Shown here: positions 12,180-25,801 of the stretch, piece after piece | Layout of the letters: every line of letters begins with the position of its first letter | Numbering within the stretch: the first letter of the stretch is position 1 | DNA from: Curtobacterium sp. MCPF17_002 | GTDB taxonomy: Bacteria; Actinomycetota; Actinomycetes; Actinomycetales; Microbacteriaceae | Reading direction: 5' to 3' | NCBI RefSeq assembly: GCF_003234115.2 | Contig: NZ_CP126251.1 | Location: 2,108,001-2,172,000 of the forward strand | Length of the DNA: 64,000 nt | Program-made: the position numbers and the translations under genes | The notes under the pieces: model-generated | What the model was told of the DNA's origin: nothing | Seen by the model: the letters and a program-made list of their open reading frames with translations, nothing else | The model's database searches: none

Positions 12180-12188
12180 TGCGCGTGG

Positions 12189-12738
12189 CCCGGCGCGCGC
12201 ACCGTGCGCACGCCGTCACCTGGTGCGAGGTTGCGTGCTCCGTGCGCGGCCACACCCCCCGCACCACGAACGGAACCCCGCACCGGACGACGCCCCTCGC
12301 ACCGTGCGAGGCACGCACCGGGCGGACTGAAGGCACGGTGCCAGGCCGCCCCGCGCCTCCCGTCCGCCACCCCGGCCGTCCAGAACGCGTGACCCGGCGC
12401 GCGCACCGTGCGCACCCCGCCACCTGGTGCGAGGTTGCGTGCTCCGTGCGCGGCCACAACCCCCGCACCACGAACGGAACCTCGCACCGCACGACGCCCC
12501 TCGCACGGTGCGAGGCACGCACCGTGCGGACTGGAGGCACGGTGCCAGACCGCCCCGCGCCTCCCGTCCGCCACCCCAGCCGTCCAGAACCCGCGACCCG
12601 GCACGCGCACCGTGCGCACCCCGCCACCTGGTGCGAGGTTGCGTGCTCCGTGCGCGGCCACCACCCCCGCACCACCAACGGAACCTCGCACCGGACGGCG
12701 GCCCACGCACCGTGCGCCCCTCGCACCGTGCGCACACG
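12189..12738. repeat. Composite 204-bp palindromic unit, about 2.7 tandem copies
   Basis: This 608-bp gene-free stretch between the MFS and acyltransferase genes is filled by a tandem repeat of period 204: units at 12189-12392, 12393-12596 and a truncated third from 12597 to about 12738. A full unit contains three hairpins. The first is GGTGCGAGGTT paired with AACCTCGCACC about 55 bp away (family B); the second is CCTCGCACCGTGCGAGG; the third is GGACTGGAGGCACGG paired with CCGCGCCTCCCGTCC (family A). Unit 1 has a few substitutions in the arms, units 2 and 3 are closer. No coding sequence is convincing here on either strand. Confidence 0.9.
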
Positions 12739-24928: not shown

Positions 24929-25534
24929 CTACTTCTTGGCGCTGAGCTGCTCGATGATCGCCTTGGCGACGTCGTGCATGGTGAGGCGGCGGTCCATCGA
25001 GGCCTTCTGGATCCAGCGGAACGCCTCGGGCTCGGTGAGGCCCATCTTCTCGTTGAGCAGGCCCTTGGCCCGGTCGACGAGCTTGCGGGTCTCGAAGCGC
25101 TCGACGAGGTCGGCGACCTCGGCCTCGAGCGTGATGATCTGCTGGTGCCGCGAGAGGGCGATCTCGATCGCGGGGAGCAGGTCGTTCGGCGTGAACGGCT
25201 TGACGACGTAGGCGAGGGCGCCGGCCTCGGTCGCGCGCTCGACGAGGTCCTTCTGGCTGAAGGCCGTGAGGAGGACCACCGGAGCGATGTGGTTCTTCGA
25301 CAGCTTCTCGGCTGCGGAGATGCCGTCGAGCTGGGGCATCTTGACGTCCATCACGACGAGGTCGGGACGGAGGTCGGTCGCGAGCTGCACGGCGGTCTCG
25401 CCGTCACCCGCTTCGCCGACCACGTCGAACCCGTTGTCGCGGAGGATCTCCACGATGTCGAGGCGGATGAGCGACTCGTCCTCGGCGACGACGACGCGAC
25501 GGGGTGCTGTTGCAGTTGCTTCTGTGTCACTCAC
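24929..25534 (-). CDS. pdtaR: ANTAR-domain response regulator (PdtaR-like)
   Basis: The 201-residue protein joins a receiver domain (acidic pocket AEDES at 18-22, phosphoacceptor Asp63 in VVMDVKMP, conserved Lys in VVKPFTP) to a C-terminal ANTAR domain (about 145-195, LVDRAKGLLNEKMGLTEPEAFRWIQ). ANTAR proteins bind paired RNA stem-loops and act as antiterminators. The order near polA and rpsA matches Mycobacterium PdtaR, whose kinase PdtaS is coded elsewhere. The GTG start (VSDTEATA) is where homology begins; ribosome site weak. Confidence 0.93.
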   Translation of the reverse strand: MSDTEATATAPRRVVVAEDESLIRLDIVEILRDNGFDVVGEAGDGETAVQLATDLRPDLVVMDVKMPQLDGISAAEKLSKNHIAPVVLLTAFSQKDLVERATEAGALAYVVKPFTPNDLLPAIEIALSRHQQIITLEAEVADLVERFETRKLVDRAKGLLNEKMGLTEPEAFRWIQKASMDRRLTMHDVAKAIIEQLSAKK

Positions 25535-25592
25535 AGGATGCAGCCTACTAGACGACAGCCGTTTGTCCTGAACGGGACTGGCTTGCGATGTT

Positions 25593-25680
25593 CCGTGAGC
25601 ATCTGTTGTACGAGTGGCGGGACGGCGGGTGCCGGTACTGCCCCGAACGCCGTGAGCATCTGTTGTACGAGTGGCGGGAC
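25593..25680. repeat. 31-bp direct repeat duplicating the tRNA-Leu 3' end
   Basis: The same 31 bases occur at 25593-25623 and 25650-25680. Each copy contains the last 15 bases of the tRNA gene (T-arm 3' half, acceptor stem and discriminator) plus 16 bases downstream of it. The copies are 57 bp apart. Duplicated tRNA 3' ends are the usual trace of site-specific integration, but no integrase or island lies between the copies, so this may be a scar or a slippage duplication. Confidence 0.85.
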
Positions 25681-25747
25681 TTGAACCCGCACGCCGTGAG
25701 GCAGAGCATTTTGAGTGCCCCGTGTCTGCCGATTCCACCACACTCGC
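25666..25747 (-). tRNA. tRNA-Leu (anticodon CAA)
   Basis: The minus strand from 25747 gives a full class II tRNA of 82 nt. The acceptor stem GCGAGTG pairs with CACTCGT (with one G-U), followed by a D-arm, an anticodon stem GGGCA/TGCTC around loop CTCAAAA, a long variable arm typical of leucine tRNAs and a T-arm CGGGTTCAAGTCCCG. The anticodon CAA reads UUG. The discriminator is A and CCA is not encoded. Confidence 0.95.
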
Positions 25748-25801
25748 GAGGAGGCCAACAGTACCAGCCCGACCCGCGCCTCCAGGCCGTCACCGACCCG
25801 C

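Follow-up and report, generated by a model that had tools for sequence, protein, structure and literature searches.

Tandem arrays of the tRNA's own 3' end behind tRNA-Leu(CAA) and other rarely used tRNA genes of Curtobacterium

We report that a short repeat directly downstream of tRNA-Leu(CAA) in Curtobacterium sp. MCPF17_002 is the shortest form of a tandem array built from the tRNA's own tail. Such arrays gain and lose copies behind several tRNA genes of low use. The analysed stretch of 64,000 nucleotides, referred to below as the window, belongs to a genome of 3.82 Mb assembled as a single contig. What is unusual is the recurrence of such arrays at four tRNAs within one genus. We consider it probable that they are minisatellites anchored to tRNA genes, which arose by tandem duplication and unequal exchange and most likely have no function.

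The repeat and its unit behind tRNA-Leu(CAA)

The window contains two identical 31-nt copies that start 57 nt apart and leave a gap of 26 nt, exactly as the initial annotation had described them. Its division of the repeat into a tRNA end and trailer bases also agrees with ARAGORN and Rfam, by which 15-16 of the 31 bases belong to the tRNA and the rest to the trailer. The features of the locus are as follows.

25593..25623, minus strand: distal copy of the 31-bp repeat (repeat search)
25650..25680, minus strand: tRNA-side copy of the 31-bp repeat (repeat search)
25665..25747, minus strand: tRNA-Leu(CAA), the parent gene (ARAGORN; Rfam RF00005, 51.4 bits, Rfam bounds 25666-25747)
25657..25700, minus strand: parental stretch of 44 nt, consisting of variable arm, T arm, acceptor 3' strand and 8-nt trailer (sequence; boundary from a second repeat family, 25686-25700)
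25600..25656, minus strand: one extra array unit, 57 nt (repeat search, locus comparison, alignment)
25593..25599, minus strand: truncated start of the next unit, CTCACGG (sequence; the motif begins most units in relatives)
25769..25789, minus strand: dispersed repeat CGGCCTGGAGGCGCGGGTCGG, just upstream of the tRNA (near-identical 25-40-nt matches)

In 5' to 3' direction along the minus strand, the tRNA and its 8-nt trailer are followed by the 57-nt unit, which consists of CTCACGGCG (a copy of the variable arm), the 5' half of the T stem, a GC-rich insert in the place of the T loop, the 3' half of the T stem with the acceptor strand, and an identical 8-nt trailer; the truncated CTCACGG comes last. 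A second repeat family matches at 14 of 15 bases between 25642-25656 and 25686-25700. Since similarity to the tRNA resumes past the 31 bp, the duplicated part is the entire 3' third of the tRNA with its T loop altered. The 31-bp repeat is real but is only the visible part of a larger unit, so that the initial annotation describes it incompletely. By our own arithmetic, the chance of 31 identical bases with a set spacing is ~1e-16, even if 0.3 is allowed for each base, and this figure, together with the recurrence of the arrangement in relatives, excludes a chance repeat.

Other repeats also occur in the window. The dispersed repeat CGGCCTGGAGGCGCGGGTCGG has near-identical matches of 25-40 nt at many places in many Curtobacterium genomes and one exact copy in the window, and two matches with three mismatches fall inside a 204-bp tandem repeat (2.7 copies, 92%) at 12182-12732.

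Copy number and uniformity of units among relatives

The stretch from tRNA-Leu(CAA) to the next gene, which encodes an ANTAR response regulator, was read in 41 Curtobacterium genomes (G000-G035 minus G023, which is without a tRNA match, plus six from the family sample). The number of extra tandem units ranges from 0 to 7 per genome, with at least one unit in 15 of the 41 genomes and no intact extra unit in the other 26. There are seven extra units in G021 (a count that takes in shortened units of 46 and 17 nt), five in G026 and G015, four in G016, three in G013, two in G014 and G017, and one in seven others including the window genome; G005 has at least three, divided between contigs. Altogether, 2-7 extra units at a regular period are present in 8 of the 41 genomes, and three further genomes (G018, G163 and G315) carry, as judged by eye, a decayed half unit without the tRNA end. 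Unit length is mostly 46-57 nt. G001, G011 and G033 have a tail without units, and in G005 the units sit precisely at the junction of this tail with the tRNA end.

Outside the genus, five Leu loci of the sister genus g26 have identical gene order and no unit. When a collection of 84,980 species' genomes was scanned for the two-copy pattern, 18 stretches were found (two of them from one assembly), of which 17 bear a Curtobacterium title and one that of "Microbacteriaceae bacterium PS02332"; part of this restriction follows from the pattern itself, which is specific to the sequence of tRNA-Leu(CAA). A DNA search of 299 family genomes gave a tRNA match in 288, and 30 of those loci were read. A covariance model of the unit, scored on just 19 candidates per genome and hence a weak test, found the unit in 1 of the 299 family genomes, namely the window genome itself. 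The gene tree is poorly resolved: parsimony requires 10 state changes, the number imposed by well-supported branches is only 3, and equally low values arise in 23 of 500 shuffles.

That the array is an assembly artefact or a chance repeat is extremely improbable. The assembly of G005 is indeed broken by the array at Leu, but arrays are also present in the single-contig assemblies G000, G015, G017 and G026, the two-copy array is seen in 17 assemblies of the genome collection, and the units differ by substitutions and length changes that assembly error would not produce.

Pairwise identity of units is 0.936 within genomes (54 pairs) as compared to 0.790 between genomes (231 pairs, 22 genomes), and because units are closer to each other within than between genomes, the Leu(CAA) array shows concerted evolution. 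Between species, identity by column is 0.944 in the tRNA-derived blocks, 0.460 in the linker and 0.535 in the insert. The constancy of the tRNA-derived blocks may reflect either the sequence they have in common with the adjacent functional tRNA or selection, and the data fit both.

From these patterns we infer a probable course of events. In an ancestor of Curtobacterium, a tandem duplication would have copied the 3' third of tRNA-Leu(CAA) together with some bases of its trailer, and the T loop of the copy would have been exchanged for a longer insert. Unequal recombination between these identical blocks of tRNA origin, or replication slippage between them, would then have added and removed units. 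Units of one genome would thereby stay alike, and the linker and the insert would be free to diverge from species to species. Being under selection, the intact tRNA would keep resupplying one constant end sequence. Of the explanations in the initial annotation, the slippage event fits.

Arrays behind other tRNAs and the question of integration

In the window genome, 48 tRNAs were checked over 350-600 nt downstream of each. Besides Leu(CAA), three extra units were seen by eye at Lys(TTT) and three at Arg(CCT). Gly(TCC) has no array in this genome, its array being known from relatives, and Glu(CTC) was set aside as a candidate because it is an ordinary duplication of the full gene. Two other Curtobacterium genomes were surveyed at 32 tRNAs each, which are those on the 30 best-scoring loci and the known Leu locus, deliberately added: G026 has arrays at Lys and Leu and a 47-nt array at Gly(TCC), and G017 has arrays at Lys and Leu. 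Among 32 tRNAs of G121, which is outside the genus, there is no own-tail array, and 32 tRNAs of G145 from a sister genus include one array of a different type, in which a terminator is flanked by copies in direct and inverted orientation. At the Leu, Lys and Arg loci of outgroups, 2 of 42 tRNAs have a match of at least 12 nt, one of which is merely another downstream tRNA gene.

In the genus sample, downstream copies of the tRNA tail are found at Lys in 15 of 25 genomes, at Arg in 10 of 25 and at Gly in 7 of 24, where the thresholds for Lys and Gly are loose (3 mismatches in 15) and the counts take in degenerate single copies; the upstream control gave 1 of 25, 0 of 25 and 1 of 24, respectively. 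The Lys array of the window genome scored 2 in this sample due to a deletion in one unit. Periods are 60-66 nt at Lys and 44-64 nt at Arg. The Arg unit of G019 is 64 nt long and includes more of the tRNA, compared to 44-51 nt elsewhere, and this difference points to a separate origin. The process outlined above for Leu(CAA) would likewise have begun separately behind tRNA-Lys(TTT), tRNA-Arg(CCT) and tRNA-Gly(TCC).

All four array-bearing tRNAs read codons that are rare in the six counted window genes. The codons that these tRNAs match exactly occupy, as a set, ranks 7, 8, 11 and 12 from the bottom of 43 (rank-sum p 0.017), in a count of 4,117 codons from these six genes only that was looked at post hoc, when the arrays had already been found. 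In the trailer of a tRNA that is seldom used, an array may cause little harm, which would explain why the arrays persist.

Some individual loci show other arrangements. At tRNA-Gly(TCC) of G020 (L339), the tRNA is separated from a degenerate copy of its tail by several repeats of a short sequence that resembles a linker. At tRNA-Met of the sister-genus genome G145 (L238), the tRNA 3' end and a terminator hairpin are duplicated, and an inverted copy of the tRNA end follows the second terminator, which suggests template switching at hairpins. At tRNA-Leu(CAA) of G350 (L115), direct and inverted copies of the tRNA end lie within ~160 nt downstream.

The 3' ends of tRNA genes are classical attachment (att) sites, and the repeat in the window includes such an end. 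The initial annotation had raised an empty or collapsed attachment site. In a fuller form of this reading, the copies would be attL and attR of a lost or almost fully deleted mobile element, or the units would be att sites on which an integrase works in trans. We regard such an integrase scar as quite unlikely at Leu(CAA), where the 26 nt between the copies contain no mobile DNA. No insertion or mobile element was found in the 40 genus loci with a measurable distance; from tRNA to gene start this distance is at most ~500 nt, and the longest stretches are array. The 16-nt core of the repeat, sought in the whole window genome with up to one mismatch, occurs only at the two known places. With no mobile element seen at this locus and no further copy of the core, the reading is unsupported, and the scar was rejected for want of both an insertion and a distant partner. 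Moreover, an attP would restore the tRNA, which the unit with its destroyed T loop could not do. Searches of phage and plasmid collections yielded partial matches only, up to 54% of the query; many phage matches are annotated tRNA-Leu genes and others have no annotation beneath the match. Of 13 viral contigs with the 17-mer, 8 have it within a called tRNA-Leu and 5 without a called tRNA over it, and no clear attP was found among them. The comparison of related strains suggested in the initial annotation has a divided outcome: no island was ever found, whereas the same two-copy arrangement is not present in all relatives, given the variation in extra units.

Integration does occur at other array-bearing tRNAs. 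In G009, tRNA-Lys(TTT) carries 3.7 kb of inserted DNA with a Phage_integrase protein (E 9e-27) and tRNA-Arg(CCT) carries 12.5 kb, with unit-like copies at the far end of these insertions; at Arg, an array-type unit instead of a plain copy of the tRNA forms this far end. G008 has a 23-nt copy of the tRNA end 1.6 kb behind tRNA-Lys. The G009 insertions at Lys and Arg indicate that some array-bearing tRNAs double as integration sites.

L252:3092-3931 (G009): tyrosine recombinase at the end of the 3.7-kb insertion behind tRNA-Lys(TTT) (Pfam)

Possible function and comparison with known systems

The gene next to the array encodes a response regulator that we take to be of the PdtaR type.

24929..25534, minus strand: response regulator with an ANTAR RNA-binding domain, GTG start at 25534 (Pfam Response_reg 8.3e-27, ANTAR 1.2e-21)
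25542..25550, minus strand: conserved TAGTAGGCT, candidate -10 element of the ANTAR gene (sequence; kept in most genus loci)

Pfam was run on 24929-25531, the ANTAR gene alone among the window genes, and the GTG start was taken from the sequence and is conserved in relatives. TAGTAGGCT sits ~7 nt before this GTG (a leaderless start), with the array upstream of it. Its position and conservation are compatible with a possible -10 element; a promoter scanner found no sigma-70 consensus.

The units could alternatively be a functional RNA or regulatory array which, as pre-tRNA trailer, tunes 3' processing or termination of the tRNA, or acts on the ANTAR regulator. In all genus loci read as far as the ANTAR gene, any array present is located between this gene and the tRNA. 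The persistence of one unit type over much of the genus, and its conserved position ahead of a regulator gene, could be a sign of function, as could the rare codons served by the parent tRNAs and the T stem retained by most units. We nevertheless consider a function of this kind unlikely. The T-stem complement is retained in 94.7% of cells, but no compensatory changes were found in the T stem of the aligned units, and pairing kept in this manner is no evidence for or against neutrality. The many genomes that manage without an intact extra unit also count against function, and the DNA that follows the arrays at Lys and Arg bears, by eye, no relation to the start of the ANTAR gene. On the tRNA strand the window has no terminator-like site. 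Eight of nine units fold no better than shuffles, the exception being L040 (z -3.3), and in the window an Rfam scan at a loose threshold placed no family other than tRNA at or above its gathering score. ANTAR-target RNAs are described in PMC8164766 as two hairpins with hexanucleotide loops that have A at position 1 and G at position 4, joined by a linker of up to 25 nt. Among 41 trailers, the dual motif was found in none and one such hairpin in 5. The idea of an ANTAR-bound RNA, prompted by the neighbouring gene, was consequently rejected.

A broader proposal is that minor-tRNA tails are recurrently copied, in a genus-specific manner, into hypervariable arrays used as trailers of variable copy number that tune the output of rare-codon tRNAs or as decoy landing sites that divert integrases from the tRNA, and we think it improbable. 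Under the preferred reading, that of minisatellites anchored to tRNA genes, a tRNA 3' duplication need not be the integrase footprint for which it is usually taken but can be a tandem array that renews itself, and programs that search for islands should be warned against false att calls. Four tRNAs that behave alike in one genus offer a natural series for studying how arrays start and stay uniform beside an essential gene, as well as whether trailer length affects minor tRNAs, and the arrays may be usable as strain-typing markers.

A literature search covering open-licence papers turned up none evidently describing these arrays in Curtobacterium. Integrase attL/attR at tRNA 3' ends resemble the window repeat in including the tRNA 3' end and trailer bases; the array differs in having no element or integrase at the locus, tandem units, an altered T loop and concerted evolution. 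Bacterial minisatellites (VNTR) have variable copy number and homogenised units as the Curtobacterium arrays do, whereas here one block of the unit matches the adjacent functional tRNA gene and is constant between species. The closest known case is that of the E. coli tyrT/tyrV repeats, named "rtT", which are likewise direct tandem copies of the tRNA's own 3' end just downstream of it. In our re-measurement, exact copies of the final 19 nt of tyrV lie at +159, +337 and +515 in E. coli K-12, with a period of 178, next to the annotated rttR and tpr. The E. coli unit is thus 178 bp long with 19 nt of tRNA, occurs at one tRNA locus, and is accompanied by an annotated sRNA (rttR) and a small ORF (tpr). 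The window unit, in comparison, is 57 nt long with no Rfam family besides tRNA, and most Curtobacterium units are ~44-66 nt (some 17 or 18 nt), largely tRNA-derived, and present in 0-7 extra copies at four different tRNAs of one genus. We therefore group the Curtobacterium arrays with those at E. coli tyrT, from which they differ by their much shorter units and their recurrence at four tRNAs, and not with att sites.
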